A DNA stretch of 64,000 nt from Apteryx mantelli (Eukaryota; Chordata; Aves; Apterygiformes; Apterygidae), in the NCBI RefSeq assembly GCF_036417845.1, contig NC_089981.1:39686668-39750667 (forward strand), read 5' to 3'. Under the pieces are notes generated by a model, which had not been told where the DNA came from, ran no database searches, and was given only the letters and a program-made list of their open reading frames with translations. The translations under genes and the position numbers were made by a program. This document shows, piece after piece, positions 8,150 through 64,000 of the stretch. Within the stretch, counting starts at the first letter, position 1, and every line of letters begins with the position of its first letter.

Positions 8150-9043
8150 TGTCTAATATCTTAATAATCAACCTAGACAATGACACAGTGCAGCCTCAGC
8201 AAGTTTGTGGGTGACACTAAATCAGGGAGAGCAGCAGACAAGTGGCTGAACTTCTATCCAGAGGGACCCCAACAGAGTTGAAAATTTGGCCAAGAAAAAA
8301 CACTTATGAAGTTCCTACAAGGAGAAGTGAAAAGTTCTGTGCCTAGAGTGGAAACGTATGGGCCGAGAAGCAACTAGCTGCATAGCAGTTCTGTTGAAAA
8401 GGCTTGGAGGTTACGGGGGCTGCCAGGCTGAATATGAGCCAAGAGTACACCCTCTGTGTGGGTAAGGCAAACCACATTCTGGTCTACATTAGTAGGAGCA
8501 CGGCCAGAAAACTGAGGGAAGCTGTTATTTCTTTCTACTAGGGAATGGTACGGTGCACCCAGTTTTAGGCGCCCCACTTCAAGAGGGCTCTGGGCAAACT
8601 GGAGAAAGTGCAGCAGAGGGCTGTCAGGGACCTAAGAGCACACAGCCCTTCAGGGAGAGGTTGGGGGAGCTGGGCTTGTGTAGCCTGGCTATGAGGCTGA
8701 AGGGCAATTTAAAAGCAGCCTACAACTACTGGAAGGGTGACTAACAAAGATTATGGAGCCAAATTCTTCTCAGGAGTGCCAGATGGTGCAATGAGGGGCA
8801 CTGGCCACAAACCGTGGCTTGGGAGATTCTGGAGAACTGGACTTCAGGAGTAAATTCTTCACTAAAAAGTGAACAGGTTGCTCAGAGAGGCTGTGGAATC
8901 TACTGTGTGGAAGTTTTCAAGATTTAGCAAAGCAAAGCCATTGCTGACCTGACCTAGTTCTGGCAGCAGTCCAACTCCGAGTGGGAGGTGGGCCTAGATG
9001 ACCTCCAGGACTTCCTTCTAACCAGCATTTCTGTGATTCTATG
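8150..9043 (+). mobile_element. Decayed, 5'-truncated CR1 LINE (copy A)
   Basis: The left part keeps a degraded version of the ORF2 region around the reverse-transcriptase active site (…AGCAAGTTTGTGGGTGACAC…, corresponding to SKFADDTK). Further right come the characteristic CACTTCAAGAGGG and CTGGGCTTGTGTAGCCTG stretches. The 3' end is diagnostic: GACCTCCAGGACTTCCTTCTAACC followed by ATTTCTGTG ATTCTATG ending at 9043. Frameshifts and stops are frequent, so the copy is old and inactive. The left boundary is approximate because the homology fades. It is inserted in antisense orientation to ABTB2. Confidence 0.88.
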
Positions 9044-27300: not shown

Positions 27301-28980
27301 CATCTTTTTCTTTGTAGAACCATGATATTTTACTCCAGATTCCACAGACAAGGAACAGAAGATGGAACCGAGTCCTCTTTTTGGACTCAGCTATAAATAT
27401 TCCCGTGGTATATGAAGGATTATGACAACTGTGTTGGCAAGGCAAGACATCCCCATACCTTTACAATCTTGCATGAAAGAGCCTGTAGTTTAAAAAGCAA
27501 ATGTTTATGTTCGGCTTTTAAACTTACAGTTATGTTTTATACCAGTGCCGAAAGCGCACCCCAAAAGACTCTATCTTTTGCATTTAATTCACATACTTTC
27601 AGTAATATTGTCAGTAGACAGAGCACAGATAGCGTGTACAAGGGAGGGTTTGTGAGCTCAGTAATAGAAGCCATCCTCTTAAGTAGTTAGGATGACCCAA
27701 CAGAGAGAAACCGCAGTGTTGAGCAGTTACTGCACCTATCCGCTGGTAATGTGAATTGCTACGTTATTGCTTGGGGAAGGGATAATAGGAAGGTAATGCG
27801 GCTCATCAGCATGAGCTAAAAGTCGGCCTTTTTCTGACAAAGTATTTCATTAGTAACATTCACCTAAGGTATCATTTTTCCCCTCAAAGAAAATCTGCTC
27901 CTTCACTTATCCCTCATTATGAGGTTACATTTCAAAGAGACCAAGGCACTTGCTTTTATAAACAGTTAAATCAGAAAGGTTTTCTTCATAGAGCGTCTGA
28001 CCACAACAACAAAACCAGCGAAAGCCATGAAACTGCGTGGGGTACACAGAACCGCTTTCTGAATTCAATGCTTCTCTAAATTTTCCATGGAAAATTATGG
28101 TACTCCTCAGTGCGACACAACAACAACAAAAAACAAACAGTGCAGCTTCCTAACAGAACTGTCAAGATTCAAGTCTTTTTAATTGCTCCACAATCTCCTA
28201 AAAAGATGCCAGCATTCCTTTATCTGCTTATTTGCTTAACTGCTTAAAAAGTCTGCTTTCTAGTCAAGTGCCAGGATTAAGTATTTTAATGCTAAGTTAC
28301 TCTCATTATTGAGGTACCATCCCACATACTTAACTTGGCAAGCCAGGCGCAAATTCTTGTTTATTACATGAGCATAGCACAGCACAGCCTTGTACTAAAC
28401 TAGAAAGAAGTTTAAGTAACATCTAGTTATTAGTTTTTGTTCAGGAACTGAACTTTATTACTGAAATGAAAAAAAAAATCAAGTTGTTTTCCCTCTCCAG
28501 GCTGTATGGAGGAATAGCATCTTTAAGATGAAACTCTGCAAAATTCTCAGTATATTTTACTATACATTGGTGGTAGAGTGAAGTAGGTTTTGTTTAAAAA
28601 GAATAATGGTATTTTCTGAAGAACAGCTTGTTAACGCACGTTTCATATCATGGGTACAGAAAAGCATGCACACATGCCAATTATAGTAAAAATGCTCAAA
28701 ACAACAGCTGGTAGAAAGTTGGAAGAGACATTTGTTAGGACAACAGGGCTTGGTTTCCCACCACCTCTGCACCTTTTATAAACTGGTACACGTTAAGAAT
28801 AAAGCAGTATCACTCCTGCCTGGTAAAACTATGTCACACACACAAACCACTACCAAGATGCGATTCAGATGAAAAAAATCCCCAAAAGCAAAAAACCAAA
28901 AGCCCCCCACACAGATCCACAGAAATTACTTATTTTACTATAAAGCCTGTTGGTACGAAGACTAGCAATCACGAAAACTG

Positions 28981-28989
28981 GATCTTACC
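28981..28989 (-). other. ABTB2: ABTB2 exon 1 splice donor
   Basis: On the minus strand the exon ends G|GTAAGATC, matching the donor consensus GTRAG. It interrupts the glycine codon that follows CGKNAN. Homology to the family stops exactly here and a stop codon follows within five codons. Confidence 0.88.
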
Positions 28990-29853
28990 ATTAGCATTTT
29001 TCCCACAAATGAGATGTTCGTAAGGTTGCAGCACTCCCCAAAGTTCAGCATCGTTGTTGATAACCATCTCCAGGATTTCAGCTGAGATCTCCCCTCCTCC
29101 ACCATCAGGGCTCTGACTTGCCAGAACCCTGGCTTTGATCTCTTCTACAAGGTTTTCCATGCAAGAGGTTAAAGAGATGGCTGCATATTCATGGATCCTA
29201 ACTGAGATCCTAGTGTCCACCATCCACCTGAAAAACCTGCCCACAGAAAAGGTGAGGCCACATCTAGCTGATTTACCTTTCCTCAGCCCATCTCCAGCAC
29301 TCATGCTGTACAGAGAGAGAGCCTTGACAGTCGCCAAGACGCAGCTTTCCGATAATGACCAGCTCTGGATGAGCTTGATAGCACTCTGCACCTCAAACCT
29401 GGTGCACTTGGAGTGCATCACGCTGAGACGCTGAGCTTCCCTGGAGATCCTGATCAAGGCACGCCTCAGTAGCTGAGAGAGCCGCCTGACAGCTTCCTGA
29501 GTAAAGGTTCTGGTATTTCCATCTCCCTTCCCTTTTCTGAGTATTTTTCCAATGTCTTCATCAGTCCAGGGGTATTCCTCTAGATCCGGCAGCTTAGGAC
29601 ACTTGGAAAATATATCTGCAACTTCTGGGTCTTCTGGCAGAAGAGTGTTCACCGTATCCCAGCTGTTATTCCTACTGTTCATGGAGCCCGAGTAGTACCA
29701 CCAGTTGCCTCTGTGCTGAGAAGAGGTAAAAGCCTGGGAGTTGGACTTGGACGAAGAGAGACTAAGGGACCTGCAGGAATCCCCTGCCCCATAACCAGAG
29801 TCCAAAGTTAAATCCTCTAGGGTCTTCAGAGTAGAGCTGTATATCCCAGCCAT
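28989..29853 (-). CDS. ABTB2: ABTB2 first coding exon (ankyrin repeat and BTB/POZ protein 2, N-terminus)
   Basis: The frame encodes the N-terminal 288 residues of ABTB2 (BPOZ-2). Recognition comes from [16 protein letters not shown] near the start, the serine-rich [13 protein letters not shown] stretch, [33 protein letters not shown] and the end [16 protein letters not shown] chose the ATG at 29851–29853 (MAGIYSST). The frame stays open upstream, but only to a GTG at 29886, and family homology begins at MAG. The exon ends in a split codon, AATG|GTAAGATC, a consensus donor (phase 1); reading on gives KIQFS and a stop, which is intronic. Residues about 132–183 resemble histone H2B α2–α3–αC and residues about 197–280 resemble an H2A fold, including a GLTFSVGR start and a NNDAEL segment. 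In the family, the ankyrin repeats and C-terminal BTB domains are encoded by later exons, beyond this window. The protein is reported to be a CUL3-type adaptor that binds eEF1A. The paralogue ABTB3/BTBD11 is less likely, because the [12 protein letters not shown] and SMNSR regions match ABTB2 better. Confidence 0.93.
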
Positions 29854-30198
29854 AGGAAAGACGGGTAAGCCAACCGCAAAAGGCACAAAAGATGAGGCTG
29901 CGCCTACCGAGCCCGAGACGCCCGGCCCGCCAGCGGCGCGGGAGGACTTACAGCGCAGCGCAGCCCGGCGCCGCCCGCACGCCGGCTACCTCCATCCCGC
30001 AGGAAGGCGGCGCTCAGCCATCTTCTGCCTCGACGGAGACCGCCGGGCGGGCAGCCGGTGTCAGACAGCCCGGGGGCGCTGGGGGCTCGGAGGGCGCCGG
30101 GCGGCGGCGGCGGCGGCGGGGCCGCTCCGCAGGACACTTGCGGCAGCTTTGGCTCAACTTGTGCGCCGCAGCTCCGCCGGGCACCCGGGCACCGCGGC

Positions 30199-37340: not shown

Positions 37341-38177
37341 ACCAGGGTCTGATCAGCCAGAAGGAACACAGAGACACTGTTCAAGTGTGCAGAGATGGGG
37401 TTAGGAAAGCCAAAGCCCACCTGGAGTTGAATCTGTCGGGGGACACGAAGGGCAACAAGAGGGGCTTCTACAGGTACACCAGCAGCCAAAGAAAGATTAG
37501 GAAAAATGAGCCCACTGCTAAATGAGGCAGGGGACCTGGTGACAGAGGACATGAAAAAGGCCGAGGCACTAAATGCTTTCTCGCCTGAGTGTTTACTGGT
37601 AAGACTGGCCTTCAGGAATCCCAGGCCCCTGAGACCAGGGAATAGTCTGGAGCAATGAAGACTTACCTGTCATAGAGGAGGATTGAATTAGGGAACATTT
37701 AAACAATAAAACATTAGGGAACAAAAAAACTTGGCCTTACACAAGTCCATGGGACTTGATAGGATGCAACCATGAGTGCTCAGGGAGCTGGCTGATGTCA
37801 TTGCAAGACCACTCTTGATTATCTTTGAAAAGTCATGGTGATCGTGGGAGGTTTCTGACAACTACAAGAAAAATGTCACACCCATCTTCAACAAGGAGGA
37901 TCTGGGGAACTACAGACTGGTCAGGCTCACTTCGACCCCTTGGAAGGGATGGAGCAAATAATCCTGGAAACCATTTCCAAATATATTAAGGACAGAAGAC
38001 AACTGGGAGTAGAAAGCACTGATTTGTGAAAGGGAAATCATGACTGACTAACCTGACAGCCTTCTATGATCAATTGACTAGCTTGGTGGATGAGAAAAGA
38101 GCAGTTATGTTGTTTATCTTGACTTTAGTAAGGCTTTTGACCCTGTCTCCCATAACATCCTCATCATAGACAAATGG

Positions 38178-38546
38178 ATGAAGTATGGGCTAGATAAGTG
38201 GACAGTGAGGTGGACTGAAAGCTGGCTGAGCTGCCAGGCTCAAAGGGTTGTGATCAGTGACACAAAGTCCAGCTGGAGGCCAGTCTCTAGTGGTATACCC
38301 CAGGGGTTGATACTGGAGCCAAGGCTGTTGAAGATCTTCATTAATGACCTGGATGATGGGACAGAGTGCACCTTCAGCAAGTTTTCAGACGATGCAAAAT
38401 TGGGAGGAGTGGTCGACACATCAGGTGGCTGTGCTGCCATTCAGAGGGACCCCAACAGGCTGGAGAAATGGGCAAGCAGGAATCTCAGGAAGCTCAAGAA
38501 AGAGCAACGGCACAGCCTGTCCCTGGGGAGGAATAACCCCATGTAG
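38178..38546 (+). pseudogene. CR1 reverse-transcriptase fragment (ORF2 remnant)
   Basis: The longest surviving open piece of copy B (122 codons) covers the ORF2 part from KYGLDKWTVRWTESWL through the SDD active-site block to ASRNLRKLKK. It matches residues about 644–755 of the intact ORF2 in the same window. Ala to Ser before the catalytic Asp pair, and stops either side, show it is not functional. Confidence 0.9.
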
Positions 38547-39049
38547 CAGTACAGGCGGGGGGCCAACCGGCTGGAAAGCAGCTTTGCAGAGAAGGACCTG
38601 GGGGCCCCGGTGGACAGGTTGAACATCAGCCAGCAATGTGCTCTCATGGCAAAGGTGGCCAACAGCATCCCGGGCTGCACTAGAAAGAGCGTTGCCAGCA
38701 GGTCAAGGGAGGTGATCCTTCGCCTCTACTCAGCACTGGGGAGGCCACATCTGGAGTGCTGTGTCCAGTGCTGGGCTCCACAGTATGAGAAAGCCATGGA
38801 CAAACTCAAGCAAGTCCAGTGAAGGTCCACAAAGAGACTGGAGTATCTGCTGTACGAGGAGAGGCTGAGAGAGCTGGGGCTGTTTAACCTGGAGAAGAGA
38901 GGGCAGGGCAGGGGAGGAGAGGGGAGATGTTATCAATGTGTATAAATACCTGACAGGAGGGAATAAAGACGGAGCCAGACTCTTCTCATTGGTGCCCAGT
39001 GAAAGAACAAGAAGCAATAGGCACACGCTGAAATACAGAAAATGCTATT

Positions 39050-39053
39050 TAAA

Positions 39054-39085
<32 letters not shown>
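39050..39085. repeat. (TA)n microsatellite with T-tract inside CR1 copy B
   Basis: About 12 TA units followed by nine T, located where the intact CR1 encodes the C-terminal NMRKNFFT segment. It has grown from within the retroposon sequence. Confidence 0.9.
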
Positions 39086-39086
<1 letters not shown>

Positions 39087-40439
39087 CTGTAAGGCTGGTC
39101 AAACACTGGAACAGGTTGCCCAGAGAGGTTGTGGAGTCTCCGTCTTGGAGATATTCAAAACCTGACTGGACACAGTCCTGGCCAATCTTCTCTAGCTAAC
39201 CCTGCTTTGAGCAAGGGGTTTGGACTAGACAATCTCCAGAGGCCCCTTCCAACCTCAACAACCCTGTGAACCTGTGAATCCTGCTTGGGCCTCACACTGG
39301 TTCATCTGGGTGAAGATGAACTTTCCAAAGCCAGGTCCTCTGCCTATGTTTGTAATCCCATTTTTCACTAGTATTTTTAATACTGCTACTGAATCCTCTC
39401 ATTTTTAAACATCCCATTTTAATTTAGTTTTCAAAATTAAACTTATTCACTGGCTGAAACATTAACATAAACAGGCCTCATGTGAGACATTGATAGAACA
39501 AATTACATATATAGATTGTAATGGAGGTGTGTCACGCTTCCTGACACGTGTATACTGAAATGGTGTTCATGTCCTCAGCTCTGTTTTATTAGCCAGTAAT
39601 ACTTTACTGAAAATAACATTATCAAGAGCCAACCACTATACTCAAGGAGTTAATGGAAAGAACAACCATATAAATGGACAATTATAGTTAAAGACTCTTT
39701 ATTTGTCATAATCCTTAACTGTATTAGGAAACCAAATAAAGTATCATTCTCTGACACTGCTATAAAATGGATGCCCCAGAGTATATCATTCCATGCTGAG
39801 AACAGTGTTTAGATACAATGGCAAACACTGCTGAAAAGAATTAGACACAAGACAAATGATGAGGGGAAATGCAAGGGCAAAACCCAGATCTTAAGAGTGT
39901 CTTCTACCTCATCTGGAACCATGCAGAATCTTAAGACAACAGCTACAGTATTTTTGTACTGATGTACCTCAGTCTACCAGCAGCTTCCTAACTGATACAG
40001 GATCTCATTCAACAAGGCTCTTACTAACCCTGAGGGCTACCACTCCATCTTATCAGTTTTCCTGGGTTGCTGGGGACAAGTAACAATGGAATCACAATCT
40101 ACACTGGTCTTGTGCACAAATTCTGCTCCCATCTGGTTGGGGCTGGTCAGAACTTTATTTTCCCAGGAAATACTTTGTAGGATCAAAAGGGTTCACTGTA
40201 TCACACTAACCCATTGTAGTGAGAACACCTGTGGAAGATCTGGAGAGGAGTCAGTGACTGGCAGAGTATGTGGTAGCAGGCCTAGCGTTTGAAACTACAC
40301 GCTGACCAAATTCCCATCAGGGCCAGGCATGTATATTTTGTTTTGTCAACAATGTCTAGCTGCTTCCCAGACAGTAGCTACTCAAGGTTAGCACAGCTGA
40401 GATAAGGAAATAGTTCTAGTAGATTTAAGGGGCCCTTAG

Positions 40440-49000: not shown

Positions 49001-49914
49001 AAAATTTTGCAGCACAGTATTGAACTATTCTTTTTTGTGCTTGCTTATCGTAGAACATAACATATGATGGCATACATGTGAGTACCAGCTTCAGTTTAAC
49101 TAATTTTATTGGCATATTAATTTATTGTATGAATAATCTCTGTACACCAGTCCCAATCCACATTGAAGCATTTAGCTATAGACATATAACAATATATTTT
49201 CAAAAGCATGTATTTAATTTTCACTGGCAATAAAATAGGTAGCTTGATTTTCCAGACCTACCAGCCATCCAACATTTTAAATTGCCTTTAAATTTCTGAA
49301 AATTCAATTGGTTTGAAAAAACAGTTCATTTAGGATTCTAAAATACAGTCTTTCTGCATTATGGCAATGCAGATAACCCACTTACAAAATCTTGGAGCAG
49401 AAGGCAGACTAGGAGTTACAAGTTGATTACCACTGTGAAGATTCCTAGGAGCTCCAGCTTAATCAATTTTTTTTTAATAGAATCCTGGTCTATAAATACA
49501 CCTTATTATTTGCTGCAATTAGTAAGAGACACAGGAAAATAACAAATATAAGTACAGAAAGGTTGTCAGTTTTTCCCAACCTTTTCTACAGAACCACTCA
49601 CATTTTAGTGGGGAAAAAATCATCAGACCATTTTGTGCAGCATAGCAACCAAATTAGGTCAAAGATTAAATGCCCACTTTTATTTCCTCCATTTTATGTG
49701 CTTGCTTATGTACATAGGAATGTACAAGTGTGGTTTGTTGGTTTGATTTTTGCAGTCATTTTATAGACCACTTTTTAATGTCCTATGGATCAAAATAGGT
49801 CCTCATGTTAGTCTGAGTAATATTGAGCTGACTTCACAGAATCACAGAATCACTGAGGTTGGAAGGGACCTCTGGAGATCATCTAGTCCAACCCCCCTGC
49901 TCAAGCAGGGTCAC

Positions 49915-52848
49915 CTAGAGCACATTGCACAGGATTGCATCCAGGCGCATTTTGAATATCTCCAGAGAAGGAGACTCCACCACCTCTCGGGGCAACCTGT
50001 TCCAGTGCTCTGTCACCCTCACAGTGAAAAAGTTTTTCCTCATGTTAAGATGGAAGTGTCTGTGTTTCAGTTTGTGCCCATTGCCTCGCGTCCTGTCGCT
50101 CGTCACCACTGAAAAGAGTCTGGCCCCATCCTCTCGACACCCTCCCTTCAGATACTTGTACACATTGATAAGATCTCCTCTCAGCCTTCTCTTCTCCAAG
50201 CTAAACAGGCCCAGCTCTCTCAGCCTTTCCTCATAAGAGAGATGCTCCAGTCCCCTAATCATCTTTGTGGCCCTTCGCTGGACTTGCTCCAGTAGTGCCA
50301 CATCCCTCTTGTACTGGGGAGCCCAGAACTGGACGCAGTACTCTAGATGTGGCCTCACCAGGGCTGAGTAGAGGGGGAGAATCACCTCCCTCGACCTGCT
50401 GGCAACACTCTTTCTGATGCAGCCCAGGATACCATTGGCCTTCTTGGCCACAAGGGCACATTGCTGCCTCATGCTTAACTTGGTGTCCACCAGCACTCCC
50501 AGGTCCTTCTCAGCAGAGCTGCTTTCCAGCAGGTCAACCCCCAACCTGTACTGCTGCATGGGGTTATTCCTCCCCAGGTGCAGGACCCTGCACTTGCCTT
50601 TGTTGAATTTCATGACGTTCCTCTCTGCCCACCTCTCCAGCCTGTCCAAGTCTCTTTGAATGGCAGCACAGCCCTCTGGCGTATCGGCCACTCCTCCCAG
50701 TTTTGTATCGTCAGCAAACTTGCTGAGGGTGCACTCTGTGCCTTCATCCAGGTCATTGATGAAGAAGTTGAACAAGACTGGACCCAGGACTGACCCCTGG
50801 GGGACACCGCTAGCTACAGGCCTCCAACTAGACTCTGTGCCACTGAGCACAACTCTCTGAGCTCTGCCATTCAGCCAGTTCTCAATCCACCTCACTGTCC
50901 ACTCATCTAACCCACACTTCCTGAGCTTGTCTATGAGGATGCTATGGGAGACAGTGTCAAAAGCCTTGCTGAAGTCTAGGTAGACAACATCCACTGCTCT
51001 CCCCTCATCTACCCAGCCAGTCATTCCATCATAGAAGGCTATCAGATTGGTTAGGCATGATTTCCCCTTGGTGAAGCCATGCTGACTACTCCTGATCACC
51101 TTCTTTTCCTCCACATGCGTGGAGATGGCTTCCAGGATGAGCTGCTCCATCACCTTTCCAGGGATGGAGGTGAGGCTGACTGGCCTGTAGTTCCCTGGGT
51201 CCTCCTTCTTGCCCTTTTTAAAGACTGGGGTGACATTGGCTTTCTTCCAGTCCTCGGGCACCTCTCCTGTTCTCCATGACCTTTCAAAGATGATGGAGAG
51301 TGGCTTAGCAATAATGTCCGCCAGCTCCCTCAGCACTCGTGGGTGCATCCCATCAGGGCCCATGGATTTGTGGGTGTCAAGTTTGCTTAAATGATCTCTA
51401 ACCCACTCCTCCTCCACCAAGGGAAAGACTTCCTCTATCCAGACTTTCTCTCTTGCCACCAGGGTCTGGGGTTCCTGAGGGCTGGCCTGACCAGTAAAGA
51501 CTGAAGCAAAGAAGGCATTCAGTAACTCTGCCTTCTCTGCATCCTTCGTCACCAGGACACCCACCCCATTCAGCAAAGGGCCCACATTTTCCCTAGTCTT
51601 CCTCTTGCTGCTGATGTATTTGAAGAAGCCCTTCTTGTTGTCCTTGACATCTCTAGCCAGATTTAATTCCAAACGGGCCTTAGCCTTCCTCGTCGCATCC
51701 CTGCATACTCTGACAACATTCCTATATTCATCCCAAGTGGCCTGTCCCCCTTTCCACTTTCTGTAGACTTCCTTCTTCTGGTTGAGTTTTGCCAGGAGCT
51801 CCTTGCTCATCCATGCAGGTCTCCTACCTCCTTTGCTTGACTTCCTACTCATAGGGATGCACCGCTCTTGAGCCTGGAGGAGGTGATGTTTGAATATTAA
51901 CCAACTCTCTTGAACACTCCTTCCTTCCAGGGCCCTCACCCATGGGATTCCTCCAAGTAGGTCCCTGAAGAGGACAAAGTTTGCTCTCCTGAAGTCCAGG
52001 GTTGCGATCCTACTTGGTGCCCTGCTGCCTCCTCGCAGGATCCTGAACTCCACCATCTCATGGTCACTGCAGCCAAGGCAGCCCCCAACCTTCACATCTT
52101 CCACCAGTCCTTCTTTGTTTGTTAGTACGAGGTCCAGCAGCACACCTCTCCTTGTTGGCTCCTCCACCACCTGTGTCAAGAAGTTGTCACCAATGCTCTG
52201 CAGGAATCTCCAGGACTGTTTGTGCCTAGCTGTGTTGTCTTTCCAGCAGATATCGGGGTGGTTGAAGTCCCCCATGAGAACCAGGGCCTGGGATCGTGAG
52301 GCTACTTCCAGCTGTCTGTAGAAGGCCTCATCAACTTCCTCATCCTGATCAGGTGGCCTGTAGTAAACACCCACAACAGTGTCACCTCTATTAGCCTGCC
52401 CTTTGATCCTTACCCATAAGCTCTCAACTCGCTCTTCATCCACCCCTAGGCACAGCTCAATACATTCCAGTTGCTCTCTCACATAAAGAGCAACTCCACC
52501 ACCTCGCTTTCCTGGCCTGTCTTTCCTAAAAAGCACGTAGCCATCCATGACAGCACTCCAGTCATGCGAGCTATCCCACCATGTCTCCGTAATGGCAATG
52601 AGATCATGGCCCTGCGACCGCACAGATATCTCTAGTTCTTCCTGTTTGTTCCCCAAGCTGCGTGCATTGGTGTACAGGCATTTCAGGGAGGTGATCGAGC
52701 ATGCAGGTTTCCCAGGAGGGCTAAAAGAGGGTCCTCCATAGCCACATCCCATGCGCACTTCCCTGGCTGCATTCACCTGTTGGAGGCATCCTGACTTGAG
52801 CAGTCTTTTGCCAACTACCCTGTCACTATAACTCTCCCCTTCCCCCAT
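49915..52848 (-). CDS. CR1 ORF2: AP-type endonuclease–reverse transcriptase
   Basis: A 977-residue uninterrupted frame starting with ATG at 52846–52848. The N-terminal apurinic/apyrimidinic-type endonuclease (about 55–265) has N61 (TNARSL), E88 (ITETWWD), D194/N196 ([11 protein letters not shown]) and the SDH triad block at 261–263 (CSDHEMVEF). The reverse transcriptase (about 495–765) has the conserved YLDFSKAFD (D625) and the active-site FADD at 711–714, preceded by [21 protein letters not shown]. The C-terminal region (about 800–977) is the CR1-type tail. In the family the protein nicks target DNA and reverse-transcribes its own RNA at the nick, recognising the 3' tail. All catalytic residues I looked for are present and there is no stop or frameshift. 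The start follows the ORF1 stop by 5 nt. Upstream residues 1–50 have no obvious domain. Confidence 0.96.
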
Positions 52849-52853
52849 CTTTC

Positions 52854-53915
52854 CTAGTTTAAAGCCCTCCTTACCAGGTTGGCCAACCTGTTGGCAAAGA
52901 CCTGTGTGCCCCGCCTCGTGAGGTGGATCCCATCTCTCGCCATCAGTTGTCGATCTTCAAACAGGGTCCCATGGTCGTAGAAACCAAAACCCTGTTGCCA
53001 ACACCAGCGGCGCAGCCAGTCGTTAACCTGGAAAGTCCGTCTCCTCCTCCTCTCATCCATCCCCCTCACTGGCAGGATTGAGGAGAAGATGACCTGGGCT
53101 CCCAGACCCTTGACCACCATCCCCAGAGCTCTGAAATCCTGCTTGATGGTCTCCAGTTTGCCCTTGGTGTCATTGGCGCCCACATGGAAGAGCAGCAGTG
53201 GGTAATAGTCCGAAGCGTGGACAAGCCTTGGCAGTCTTTGCATGACATCTCTCACACGAGCCCCCGGCAGGCCACAAACCTCTCTAGACAAGGGGTCAGG
53301 TCTGCAGATAGATGCCTCCGTCCCCTGTAGCAGGGAGTCCCCCACAACAATCACCCGCCGCTTTTTCCGGGTGTTCCGGCAGGGCACAGGGTCTGTTGTC
53401 CCGGTTACTTCCCTGGCAGCCATGCCCATCTCCTCCTCATCCTGGAGGGCACTAAACCTGTTCTTCAGCTTCAGGTCTTCAGGAGGAGTAGGAGCCTTTC
53501 TCCTCCCACGAGCAGTGACCAGTTTCCAGCCTTCTTCTGTGATGTTATGATGTACCGTTTCACACGGCACAGAGCCCTCTGGCAACTCCACTGCTGCAGG
53601 GGGTTGGGACTCCTGGAGCTGTACAGTCTCCGAGAATACCCTGTCTATCTCTTGCTCTGCTTCTCGGATGCTGCGCAGCCTACTGACCTCCTCCCGTAAC
53701 TCCCTTACCTGACGACACAACTCGTCAACAGCAGCACACCTCCTGCAGGAGAGCTGGCTGCCAGCCCAGGCCTCCTGGAGAGGCCCCAAGCACTCCCTGC
53801 AGCCTGAGACCTGTAGAGCCGCATCTACTGTCAGAGGGTCAGTCTGGGTCCAAGCCTCTGACGCAGCAACTCCAACAGTCACTGGGGAACGCGCTGTGCG
53901 ACGTGTCACGACCAT
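52854..53915 (-). CDS. CR1 ORF1: coiled-coil protein with SGNH/GDSL esterase domain
   Basis: A 353-residue product from the only in-frame ATG (53913–53915, [10 protein letters not shown]). The frame stays open 49 further codons into the 5' UTR but has no ATG there; the first possible start is a TTG, so those codons are probably untranslated. The N-terminus has paired cysteines, C39-x2-C42 and C57-x2-C60, suggestive of a zinc-binding or knuckle-like fold. A charged heptad-like helix (about 63–95, [20 protein letters not shown]) looks like a coiled coil. The C-terminal half is an SGNH hydrolase: catalytic Ser194 in VGDSLLQG, Gly/Asn in HVGAND (G246, N248) and Asp328/His331 in RDGIHL. CR1 ORF1 proteins are known to carry such an esterase domain and to bind nucleic acid as part of the ribonucleoprotein. 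All catalytic residues are intact. Confidence 0.94.
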
Positions 53916-53972
53916 ACTTGAGGAAGTGTACACCACAGGGAACAGAAATGAAGGTCCCTTCGCACGTCCCTT

Positions 53973-54020
53973 CTGCGCAAACTGCTGCGCAAACTGCTGC
54001 GCAAACTGCTGCGCAAACTG
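53973..54020 (-). repeat. Four perfect 12-bp tandem repeats in CR1 5' UTR
   Basis: CTGCGCAAACTG (plus strand) repeats four times without a mismatch, followed by a diverged fifth unit (CTGCGTCTGTTC). It lies just inside the 5' end of the intact CR1, upstream of the ORF1 ATG, where the promoter of a LINE is expected. Each unit carries the palindrome TGCGCA. Confidence 0.92.
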
Positions 54021-54060
54021 CTGCGTCTGTTCGCTGCCTCTGTTAGCTGCGCCACTTGCC

Positions 54061-57000
54061 AAAGTGTATACAGAAATTTGAAAATAGGTTCACTATTGTT
54101 AATCCAGTGTCTTAATTAGACAACCACCCCTTCCTTTTTTTCTTGTCTTTTAAATTTCACAAAGATGTAGGAAAGTAATGTTGGTCCAGGCGGTTAAAAA
54201 TGTGAAAAATGATAGGCTTGGCTTGCTGGCTGCATGATAGTAGTAGCATACCTTTGTGTGCCAACTGGTAATACTTCCCTGTGGGATTTAATGATAGTGT
54301 TCCAATTTTATCTTAATTCCTGAAGCCTAGTTTTAGATGGTGCCACATACATGGTCTCAATAACTGTTTTGTGAAATTAAAAGGTATGCAATTAGCTCAT
54401 CTAGAACTTACTTGTTCTTAACTTCTAACTACACTCACCTGCATGGTATGACATCTGTGTGAACTGAGAAGAGCTCACTGGCTGAATAACAAATAGAATG
54501 AATTTAATTAAGTAATAGTGTACATGTAAATACATTTTAGTACAGCAATACTCTCAGCTATATAATAAATAGGTAGATAAGGCTAATACCATAGTATAAC
54601 TATTTTTTGTAGCAAAATACATAGACTTGTAGAACAATATTTCAAATTTTAATTATTATATGCTAATATCTTAAGCAGAATTATTCAGTTTTATAAGAAC
54701 TACAGCTAAATATATCTAATTATCTGAATTTCTCAACACTTACATGGTTTATATCTCATTTGTTTTATTCGTGATGTAATACAATGACATTCTTTGGTTT
54801 TGTTCTACTCTATTATTTTGACTCATTAACAGGCATAGTATTATTATTTGTACAAAAAAATCTTCCTCTTTCTACAGAATTAGAACATCACATAAAATTG
54901 CATTTGTTGTATCAAAGTATCTCTTGGATCAAGGATCTATATTTATACATACAAGCATCCAGCAAGCCAATTAAGCATTTGACTAATTTAAAGCACACAT
55001 GAGTAAGTCACACTAGATGGATGACCCATTTAAAAACTTATGAGCTTCTGATTTTAACAGGTAAAATTATTACTGTGTCTAATTTTAAATCTTTTCATAT
55101 ACCAATTGAAACATCAATGGCAAAATCAAGTTTCACAATATAGACTTTATTAACCGCTGTTAGGTAAATGCTTCATACACTGCTGTTAATAATACAGAGA
55201 ACAAATGTACAAAACATTAACAAGCTTACCTTCTTGGTGCTCTAACCTGAACATAAATAAAATTTAAAAAAAAGATTAACAAAAGAAAACTGTATTTATA
55301 TGATGCAAAATAATTTTAACAATGTAGTTTTTAGGAATAAAAATATAAAACTGAGATATCTGGAATGCTAAATATGTTTGAATATCTTATCACCTGAAAA
55401 GGGCTGCATTTTTTATTCTATTACTGTTCTTCCAAACTCTTTCAGTTATCTGAAGAGGTATATTGCAGCTCTCTTTCCAGTAGTAAATATGACATGCAGC
55501 TTCTTGATAATGATGATCAGCAGTACCTTTTAGGAAAATTAAAAAATTGTTGTAAAACCTAAATATTGATGAATGAAATTCTTTTAGGTAAAAATACTGC
55601 AAAATTTATTTTAATCCAGAATTGGTATATGCATCAACATTTACTAACCACATACACTATTAAGTTCGAAAACATGGCTGCTCTAGAATCACTGAAGGCT
55701 GTATAGTCTATGAATAATGAAAGAGGCAGAGAAGAAGAAAAATATGCAGTTTGAAACATATAAACTATTATCCTAAGACGTCTCTGTCTCTTAGGTTAGT
55801 GTCTTTCTCTAGTGATTTAAACAAATAACTCTAATAACTAATAACTCAAATAGCTCTAATAACTATAGTAGAGGACAGCTGAAAATGACAAAATAAAAGA
55901 GGTTTCCGGTCTGCCTTTTCCTGGTTTTCTTATATACATATTCTCTTAGAAGTCTGCATTATCTCTTCTCTCTGCTGTACATCTCAATATCTCATTCTGT
56001 CGACTGACAGCCCAACATGTGTGCTGTTTCCCATAAATGCCAGGCTTTTGCTTCCTAGATTCTTACCTGTCATTAAGATCATTCTCTGATTCCTTAAAGC
56101 TTGCCTTTCCTGAAGATGTTATGTCTTTCACAGTAATTGATCACTTCAATGTCTTCCATTAGATCTGATGACCAAAAAGACAAACTTAAAAAGGCAGCAT
56201 ATAACACAAGCTACTGAATGATAAATTTAAGCGTGGGAGCTTAAATAGTAAAATGTTTTCAAACATAACTTATAATGCATATACACAGATCCCCAGTTTA
56301 TTGTTACCTATCTCATATTCCATCTCTTTTTCTCACCATTTATGATGCCTAACATCTTAGTACCTGTCACCCAGATGCAGGTTGACTCTTGGTTGATTTG
56401 CCTTTAATAGCATGGACTTCATGTCTATCTAATTGCAAGTTTGACATATAAAATGGGTTTTGGTGTGTATTGCCACTTTGGAATCAAGACTGACAATCTT
56501 ATCACATGACTTCTGTCTACTGTTTTACAGTGGACATTATTTTGTCATTATTAATAATGCTTCTCTCATCTGTTTTTCTAAAATCTAAGAATAGGAACCT
56601 TTTTCTTCTAACTGTACTTGCCATACCTACTCCTCAATTCACTGTCACCTAAACGAACAGTCAAGGAGTAGAATATGTTCCTCTTCCAGTAATTTTTCTG
56701 TGCATTGATGCTTACACCAGGTGTGATAGCAGAAGGATGGGTGGAAAATCATTTGTAGAGGTTCCTGAAGTACTGTTGGATGTTTATAACAAGGCTAATT
56801 ATTATTTCAGGTTTCCAAAATAGTTTCATTATATAGTTTTATAATAGCAATACATGCAGTAGATAGACTCATTTTATGACTGAAAATATGATTCTTCTGT
56901 TAATAAAAATACATGTGATATTAATGAACTAAGTATGTGGGCCTGAAACAATGTATCTTTTTTTTTTCCCCTCTCTCTGGCCTCATTCTTTGTGGCACAG

Positions 57001-60930: not shown

Positions 60931-61153
60931 CCCTTGCCCGTATCGCGCCGCCCCCAGCACCGGGGCGGGGCGGGCACGCCCCCACAGGAGCAGGGCGGGG
61001 CAGGGCGCTCTAACCGCCACCGTCTCGCGCCCCCTGCTCGCGGCGCGTCACGGGCTCCCTTTGACCGGGGGGGGGGGCCACGGGCGCGCTGCTTTCCTGA
61101 TTGACGTTTCTTTGGCCCACTCAGAGCTCGCGTTGGCTCCTGGGCGGGGGGCT

Positions 61154-61158
61154 ATTGG
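61154..61158 (-). promoter_or_regulatory. CAT: Inverted CCAAT box of CAT promoter
   Basis: GCTATTGGCCG carries ATTGG, an NF-Y type site, directly next to a GC box (TGGGCGGGG, 61141–61149). The distance to the start codon is about 226 bp. Confidence 0.55.
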
Positions 61159-61383
61159 CCGAGGAGGTAGCGGGGGGTGGGCGCAGCGCTGAGGTAGAAG
61201 GCGTAGCGCGAGGGCTCCCGCTACCTTGTGGATGTTTACTGGGAGTGCCGCGGCGACAGCTGGGCGCTGCGGGTCACCCGTCCTGTCCCGCGCTGCCTCC
61301 GCGCCGCCAGCAAGCACCTCGAGCCGCCCTGCGCTTCTCTCCGCACCCGCCCTTCCTCCTTGGGGGTCTCCTGAGCTTGCAAA

Positions 61384-61449
61384 ATGGCTGACGGCCGGGA
61401 CAGCGCCTCGGACCAGCTGAAGCAGTGGCAGAGCCAGCGGGGCTCGCAG
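61384..61449 (+). CDS. CAT: Catalase exon 1 coding part (N-terminal 22 residues)
   Basis: ATG opens MADGRDSASDQLKQWQSQRG, followed by SQ, closely matching the N-terminal arm of vertebrate catalase (MAD-RD-ASDQ pattern). The start has a strong context (A at −3, G at +4). Homology stops after residue 22 (…SQ), where CAG|GTGCTC gives a GT donor; reading through yields GC-rich low-complexity residues. Catalase is the peroxisomal haem enzyme that dismutates hydrogen peroxide to water and oxygen. This exon encodes only the N-terminal arm, which threads between subunits in the tetramer; haem and active-site residues are in later exons beyond the window. Neighbour and orientation agree: ABTB2 lies divergently on the other side, as in the vertebrate ABTB2–CAT order. 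The donor sequence is weak, so the exact exon end is slightly uncertain. Confidence 0.9.
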
Positions 61450-64000
61450 GTGCTCGCTAGGGCTCCGCAGTCGGGGGCCGCCGGCGCAAGCGAAGCCCGC
61501 GGGGCTGCGCTCCTCGGCGCCGTGCCCGGCCCGGGGCGTTGACAGCGGGGCGGTAGCGGGCGCAGCCGTTACGGGGAGGGAGAGGGGGCGCGGCGGCAGC
61601 CGCCCTGCTGGGGGTGAGGGGAGGCGCCGGGCGGCAGCCAGGGCCGCGGCGGCGGTGCGGTGCCCCCGGGGCTCGCCGGAGCGGGGCTGCGGCCGCGCCG
61701 TGCGGCCTGAGGAGCCGCGGGGCAGCGGCCGGGGGGGCGGCGAGAGGCCGCGGGGAGGCGGGCGCCTGGCCCCGCGCCGGGGGACGGCGCGGCGCGAGGA
61801 GGCCGGCGGCCGCCCGGGAGCGCTGAGGGCAGGCGGCACGGCCGGCTCGGCTCGGCCGGGCTGCCTGGAGCCGGGCCCGCAGCCTCCCCTTACCGAGGAA
61901 GGCGGCTCGTCCCGCCCGAGCAGGGCTCTGAGCAGGGGCGGCAGACCTGCCCTAGGGTCCTCTGCTTTTAAAAACTTTATTCTTCTGTCTCTCGTCAGGT
62001 GTTGGTATTTCCATTTCTACTCTCGTATTGATAGTGTCCAGTGAAAATGTAACTGGGGAATAACATTAAATAACGCACATTCAGCTGGCATGTGGAAATT
62101 TGTTTACCAGATTTCAAAGTGGATTGCTGCAAGTGGTTAATGAGTGTCATACTGTGGATTATGTATTTTTATGATTTCAATCTTCTAAACATGTAGAATT
62201 AAATATATTTGGGTAAGCAAATAAATACAGCATTAGTTTATTTTCCTTCCTCTTCTTCAAATTACTCTGTCAGTTCCTACTATATATTGTCTCACAGGAC
62301 TGTGTATTTGGAATGAAGTACTTTCTCTGCTGATTATGCTAAGCACCCATCTTACAAAACACATGGAATGGCTTGGTTCCCACTGCTTGTATTTATTTAT
62401 TTATTTTTTAGTTCACTCTGTGCTGGAAGGTATTGTATGAAAACTACATTCCAGTGATTTGAGAAGAGCTTTACCAATAAAGACACGAATTGGGACTTCA
62501 TCATATCATTCTAGCAAGTTTCATAATGCTCTTTTAATTTTTGTACTTTGAATAATACTTTGTTACAGAAAAGCTGAAATCTGTGCTGAAAGCAGTGTTT
62601 ATACATTGGCTGAGGTTGACTTGAAGATTGGCAGGCAACCCAGAGTCTGTGTTGCACAAGGAGTCATGAGACCTTAAGATAGGCAGTAGGGAAGGCTTAT
62701 TAGAATTTTAAAATGACTTGTATAAGGTACAAGGTATCAGTAATGCCTGGAAGTATGTACTTTGATGTATGGTGTTTACAACAGCTGTGACTAAAATTCT
62801 CTTGGCTTTGTTTCCCTTCTTTCTGTCACAGGACCTTAGTGCTGTAATGAAATAAACATGCAGATTTGAAAGTTCTTATCTTTTAAGATTTTGACTGTCT
62901 GCAACTCCCAACCATATGAAAATGTAGCCATCAAACAAATTTAAATCTGAAAGTAGTATGAGAATTCTTAAAACTAGTATTTTTTTTCTTTCCCTATATA
63001 TTGATAAAACTCATTTTGTGTGCCCTGCCTAAACATTATCTGAAACTAAAGTGAATATATCCTACAATTTGAAAAAATGTTTGTACTTCTAATGTCAGCA
63101 TACATAAAGATCCTTTCAGCAGATCCGATTGACTGCCCTCACAGGAGATACTGTGCATCCACAAAACTCTTAAATTCTTGATGGCTTTAGTTTCAAAAAC
63201 TAATTGTGATTTGTAGCTACTTTATTTGTACTAGTTTTAGAAAATAACACTGCAGGAGAAACTAGTTTTCAGACAACAGTAAAGCATATTGATTTGAAAT
63301 GGGTTCTATTACCTTTACAAACCTTTATTCTTCTCTGTATACATATTTTAAAACCATTATGCAGTCTTTTTTTTTTTTCCCCCTCTCCCCCCCCCCCCCG
63401 AGATAATCACACTGAAGGTATTATTATAAGTGTAGGTGAACTAAAAGCTTCTTTTTAAAACAAAGGATAAATGTTTTTTCTTTCCAGTCTGTTTCTTACC
63501 ATGCTCTTGCAAGGGTTTTGTAAAGCAGAAGGTACAGGTGTATGTACATGCATGGTAGTTCTATCAGTGCCTACTTAAACCTCCTGGGTTACTTAGAACT
63601 TCATACAGAACTCCAGGATAAACAGGGCTCTAGTTTAACATAACTTTTGTGGAATGAGTGAAACTTGGTCTCTGCCTTAAGATGACATGCATATAAGTCT
63701 CTTTAAAAATGCTGTGGACTTGAGGAGTCTTAAGATCTATGTCCCATTTTTGAAAGTGTACCAGAATCCAATCCCCAAATTTGCTCCTCTTAGAATTTTA
63801 GTGTTCAGAATTTGTAAATGATGCTCAAGCTGTACGGACGATTCTTACATTGCACTGTCACAGGCTACCTTACGGCGAGGATGAAAGCGAAGCCCCTATG
63901 TAAAACAGGCGGGAAAGATGAAAATGTTTATAATGAATGGTATCGCAAGGAGGTTGGGAAAATGCAAAATCCTAGCTTGCCTTTCATGTGATGCATTGTT
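61450..64000 (+). other. CAT: CAT intron 1 (partial)
   Basis: GC-rich for the first 500 bp (tail of the CpG island), then AT-rich. There is no second catalase exon (no KADVLTT-like or later motif) before the window ends. It contains a T12–C5–C13 tract at 63367–63399. The open frames 61614–61826 and 61655–62044 are products of GC-rich sequence. Confidence 0.82.
63367..63399. repeat. T12 / C-rich tract with C13
   Basis: Twelve T, five C, TCT, then thirteen C. It is a polypyrimidine stretch in CAT intron 1; the complementary strand has G13 and G5 runs. Confidence 0.9.

Follow-up and report, generated by a model that had tools for sequence, protein, structure and literature searches.

The question raised by this locus is whether a LINE whose two open reading frames are both uninterrupted is an ordinary recent copy, the active source of its family, or a product of sequence assembly. 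The element lies on the minus strand of a 64-kb window (the whole stretch of DNA analysed here), between position 49835 and about 54060, and is a CR1 retrotransposon with ORF1 and ORF2 both open. It is very probably a young, full-length or nearly full-length copy of a CR1 lineage that expanded recently in kiwis and that would be named CR1-Y under the published classification. Its parts are arranged as follows.

49835..54060, minus strand: copy of a CR1 non-LTR retrotransposon, its 5' end falling at about 54053-54060 and its 3' end at 49835
52854..53915, minus strand: ORF1, 353 aa, with an SGNH/GDSL esterase domain (open frame, Pfam, motifs, ostrich record)
49915..52848, minus strand: ORF2, 977 aa, with an AP-type endonuclease and a reverse transcriptase (open frame, Pfam, motifs)
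49851..49914, minus strand: 3' UTR of 64 nt, for which two stems are predicted (sequence, fold prediction)
49835..49850, minus strand: 3' tail, two perfect ATTCTGTG units (sequence)
53916..54060, minus strand: 5' UTR, about 145 nt, a putative full extent reaching up to the AT-rich flank
53973..54025, minus strand: 12-nt tandem repeat within the 5' UTR, 4.4 copies of GCGCAGCAGTTT as read along the element

ORF1 runs from an ATG at 53915-53913 to a TAG at 52856-52854. Five bases separate its stop from the ORF2 start, an ATG at 52848-52846, and ORF2 extends to a stop ending at 49915; internal stops are found in neither frame. Chance can be ruled out as the origin of frames of this length, since 300 base-shuffled versions of the element yielded no open frame above 214 codons in the three forward frames, their maxima averaging 118. 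In Pfam searches, ORF2 matched RVT_1 (9.4e-34) and Exo_endo_phos (2.8e-15) and ORF1 matched Lipase_GDSL_2 (7e-10), each above its cut-off. Thus, ORF2 combines an AP-type endonuclease with a reverse transcriptase following it, while the Pfam match and motifs of ORF1 identify an SGNH/GDSL esterase, a domain whose presence in ORF1 is typical of the CR1 clade. A sequence search of the PDB matched 14 sequences, the best being reverse transcriptases of the LINE-1 and R2 types. All motifs searched for were found, YTNARS, ITETWW, MGDFNHP, GCSDHEM, DFSKAFD and FADDTK in ORF2 and GDSLLQG, GANDT and DGIHLT in ORF1; these correspond to the catalytic blocks of the endonuclease, reverse transcriptase and esterase. 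The ORF1 start coincides with that of an ostrich record (P0123), which begins at the same methionine as the 353-aa frame. The original prediction, made from the letters of this DNA, had called a CR1 with open frames of 353 and 977 codons and with the endonuclease, reverse transcriptase and esterase residues present; the first claim is confirmed by the frames, the shuffles and the Pfam matches, and the second agrees with the motifs.

The element is also set apart by its composition. GC content is 51-58% within it (four 1-kb steps, 50001 to 54000) as against 36% and 32% in the adjoining steps, the flanks being AT-rich on either side. CpG depletion says nothing about its age, the observed/expected ratio being 0.28 in the element and 0.25 in the first 49 kb of the window. 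At the 3' end, the two ATTCTGTG units, already listed as perfect 8-mers in the original prediction, are borne out at 49835-49850, and no run of A lies beyond them; CR1 3' ends are characterized, in the chicken CR1 paper (PMC2734521), by the consensus octamer ATTCTRTG without poly(A). A hairpin next to the tail is expected of CR1 elements; here two stems are predicted for the 3' segment (49836-49914; -26.5 kcal/mol), a fold no more stable than that of shuffled sequence (z -0.72; 48 of 200 shuffles fold as well).

The 5' UTR spans about 145 nt from the ORF1 start to the onset of the AT-rich flank and contains a single E-box-like word along with the 12-nt repeats. Full-length chicken CR1-B and CR1-F elements, as presented in PMC2734521, have the same succession of 5' UTR, ORF1, ORF2, 3' UTR and ATTCTRTG tail in about 4.2-4.5 kb; the 5' UTR of CR1-B, however, measures about 240 nt and carries two E boxes. 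Because of this difference in length, the copy may have undergone a small 5' truncation. Hence, the 5' UTR included in the original prediction is present, whereas its completeness is not confirmed: it is shorter than that of CR1-B, and no clear target-site duplication marks its outer border. A junction scan for words of at least 5 nt found none that abuts both ends of the element. The 4-nt word AAGT, noticed by eye at both junctions, is at about chance level by our estimate. The longest word common to both flanks, the 9-nt ACCTATTTT (54081-54089 and 49792-49800, minus strand), was considered as a target-site duplication and rejected, as it is separated from the 5' end by 20 nt and from the tail by 34 nt; its presence in both flanks is probably due to chance. 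The 12-nt repeat is part of the element, since an AQQF-type sequence precedes the ORF1 body in P0136 and in P0081 (Mycteria) as well; these are two of 360 fetched relatives, most of which end before the region upstream of the ORF1 body. In the ORF1 frame the repeat translates as AQQF, as it does in P0136. This frame remains open across the 5' UTR and past the 5' end of the element (52854-54089, minus strand).

The closest relatives of ORF2 are kiwi proteins. Among the best 120 of 978 matches to ORF2, identity is highest for a protein of Apteryx owenii (94% across 73% of the query), and the best 120 of 7998 scored matches to the last third of ORF2 include four further A. owenii records, one of them representing a cluster of 10 sequences. 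Our own alignments of ORF2 with A. owenii proteins gave identities of 93.7% over 713 columns (P0024), 96.2% over 494 (P0277), 94.1% over 425 (P0268), 92.5% over 411 (P0272) and 93.2% over 369 (P0271). The next named species, among the matches listed in either ORF2 search, is the crane Grus japonensis, at 88%. In a 29-row tree of the reverse transcriptase region, the window's ORF2 pairs with P0024 with support of 100/98. Turtle elements (Natator, Lepidochelys, Chelydra; P0036, P0039, P0040 and P0045 are among the turtle rows) form a separate, well supported clade in this tree; they share the ORF2 architecture and are 65-69% identical, in most cases along 90-95% of ORF2. For ORF1, the closest of the 120 matches listed out of 125 are ostrich sequences (79-81%), and no kiwi ORF1 is among these 120. 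Given the ORF2 kinship, the host is very probably a kiwi (Apteryx). A host among the other palaeognaths (emu, cassowary, rhea, tinamou), with the copy in a sister lineage of the kiwi CR1, is unlikely. Such a host would suit the ostrich matches of ORF1, and the protein database may contain few transposon ORFs from those birds; against it stand the identities to five kiwi records, the derived residues shared with them, and the poor fit of two intact ORFs with the reported near inactivity of CR1s in emu and cassowary.

CR1-Y is the closest family for almost all CR1s of palaeognaths, according to a survey of avian genomes (Galbraith et al. 2021, PMC8665684). Taken with the A. owenii kinship, this statement suggests that the present copy belongs to CR1-Y, a placement reached through its protein relatives. 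The likeness to the CR1-Y elements of kiwis comprises an endonuclease and a reverse transcriptase in one intact frame, an octamer tail and A. owenii proteins that are 92.5-96.2% identical; no defining difference was seen in this comparison, which goes by way of those proteins rather than published copies.

Sites at which the copy departs from conserved residues bear on whether it is one sibling among many or their source. A site of ORF2 was considered conserved if 90% or more of the aligned rows share the same residue, P0024 being left out of the profile. P0024 covers 369 of these sites, and there the window's ORF2 shows 20 departures and P0024 shows 25, with 14 common to the two. Three departures absent from P0024, H931, N935 and M936 at the C-terminus, are common to P0277. 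Across its full length, the window's ORF2 has departures at 33 of 489 conserved sites, 13 of them falling among the 120 sites of the endonuclease part, where there is no kiwi row to compare and traits of the subfamily are indistinguishable from decay. In ORF1, 2 of 60 conserved sites depart (four palaeognath records were left out of this profile); at residue 264 of a 402-residue reading of this frame, glycine stands in place of a cysteine, a change not found in the four palaeognath rows covering the site.

At 404 sites of ORF2 covered by at least four A. owenii rows, the window copy carries a residue other than that of their majority at 12 and a private one at 5. Private residues number 12 in P0024, 13 in P0268, 13 in P0272, 3 in P0277 (385 sites) and 16 in P0271 (369 sites), counts that may include annotation errors in that these records are predicted proteins. 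The window copy thus shows the second lowest share among the six rows. This rank would suit a currently active source element, or master, of many siblings that is still competent for retrotransposition, as would the open frames, the preserved motifs and the tail. Such a role, raised as a possibility in the original prediction, is nevertheless quite unlikely, given the 12 sites at which the copy differs from the A. owenii majority and the unproven completeness of the 145-nt 5' UTR. Furthermore, S311 replaces a glycine that P0024 and all 108 aligned rows have, and D373 replaces a glutamate present in 97% of 117 rows (a record can contribute as many as three aligned stretches, each counted as a row, so that a column may contain more rows than records). 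S311 and D373 also speak against full competence. The private replacements tell mildly against a master role and suggest an ordinary offspring copy. Most likely, then, an active lineage gave rise to the copy, which is not itself a unique master.

The same residues bear on the possibility that the open frames are an artefact of assembly, arising from repeat copies that were collapsed or polished into one sequence. Young multi-copy repeats are prone to such treatment. However, consensus collapse would tend to erase private residues that depart from the family majority, and these are retained here; the element is, moreover, bordered by AT-rich flanks on both sides. An assembly artefact is therefore highly improbable.

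The young age of this offspring copy, the preferred reading, can be approached through the survival of its frames. In a neutral-decay simulation (1000 runs per level, assumed mutation parameters, loss of start codons unscored), both ORFs were free of stops in 43% of the runs at 0.5% divergence and in 19% at 1%; when indels were included at an assumed tenth of the substitutions, both frames were intact in 7.3% and 0.3% of the runs, respectively. By a rough estimate, about half a percent of neutral nucleotide divergence would yield the five private replacements seen in 404 codons. These values favour a recent insertion, within a rough calibration and for a copy that was selected for being intact. 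The recent insertion proposed in the original prediction is thus plausible from the simulation and the few private residues, while no clear target-site duplication was found to accompany it. An old, inactive copy is rejected: a truly old CR1 in the same window has at least 21 stops in each forward frame.

Recent activity of this kind is in keeping with what has been published on kiwis. The 117-genome survey (PMC8665684) describes kiwis as having many intact CR1s and an expansion of CR1-Y before and during kiwi speciation, within the last few million years; the CR1s of emu and cassowary are described there as near inactive for millions of years. "Intact", as defined in that survey, means an endonuclease and a reverse transcriptase in one open frame and does not require ORF1, so that the published count may exceed the number of kiwi copies in which both frames are open. 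In chicken, intact CR1 copies are very rare, according to PMC2734521. Hence, the premise of the original prediction that few intact avian copies are described holds for chicken (PMC2734521) but not for kiwis (PMC8665684). Intact, recently active CR1s in kiwis being already known, the element described here is an ordinary copy and no surprise. It illustrates an intact CR1 from a lineage with published recent CR1 activity, and could serve as the template of a retrotransposition assay or as a presence/absence marker among kiwi populations.

The anatomy of the element suggests how such a copy would have been made. An RNA would be transcribed from an internal promoter in the 5' UTR; ORF1 would be translated first and ORF2, a few bases downstream, next. 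The ORF2 endonuclease would then nick the target, and the reverse transcriptase would prime at the 3' hairpin and octamer tail (target-primed reverse transcription). It seems conceivable, if unlikely, that this copy or a near-identical sibling is mobile in living kiwis and still segregating, in line with the polymorphism suggested in the original prediction, and that the promoter is the 12-nt array, varying in copy number between active copies.

Other features of the window include two further CR1 copies. One, 5'-truncated and decayed, occupies 37384-39276 on the plus strand; it matches the intact copy's 3' part at 73.9% identity and is the one whose forward frames each contain at least 21 stops. 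A third and older CR1 survives as small pieces at 8398-9043 (plus strand), with two 63-column matches at 76% and protein matches of 40-45%. A 338-codon open frame at 28969-29985 (minus strand), beside a GC-rich island, resembles the first coding exon of ABTB2; on the assumption that it is this exon, the element would lie about 20 kb upstream of ABTB2. This frame had no Pfam match above the cut-off. The stretch from 61001 to 62000 is GC-rich (76%) and is possibly the CpG-island promoter of a neighbouring gene. An Rfam search of the whole window at gathering thresholds returned no match. Five stretches of viral contigs matched the search pattern, none of them a relative; among genome contigs, 58 stretches matched, and a single locus, in a Eubacterium MAG record, proved to be a relative (39 query residues at 51%). 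Lastly, a CR1 ORF1 of bird or reptile type (P0127), 53% identical to the window's, is recorded as a Klebsiella pneumoniae SGNH hydrolase; it is probably host DNA in a bacterial assembly.
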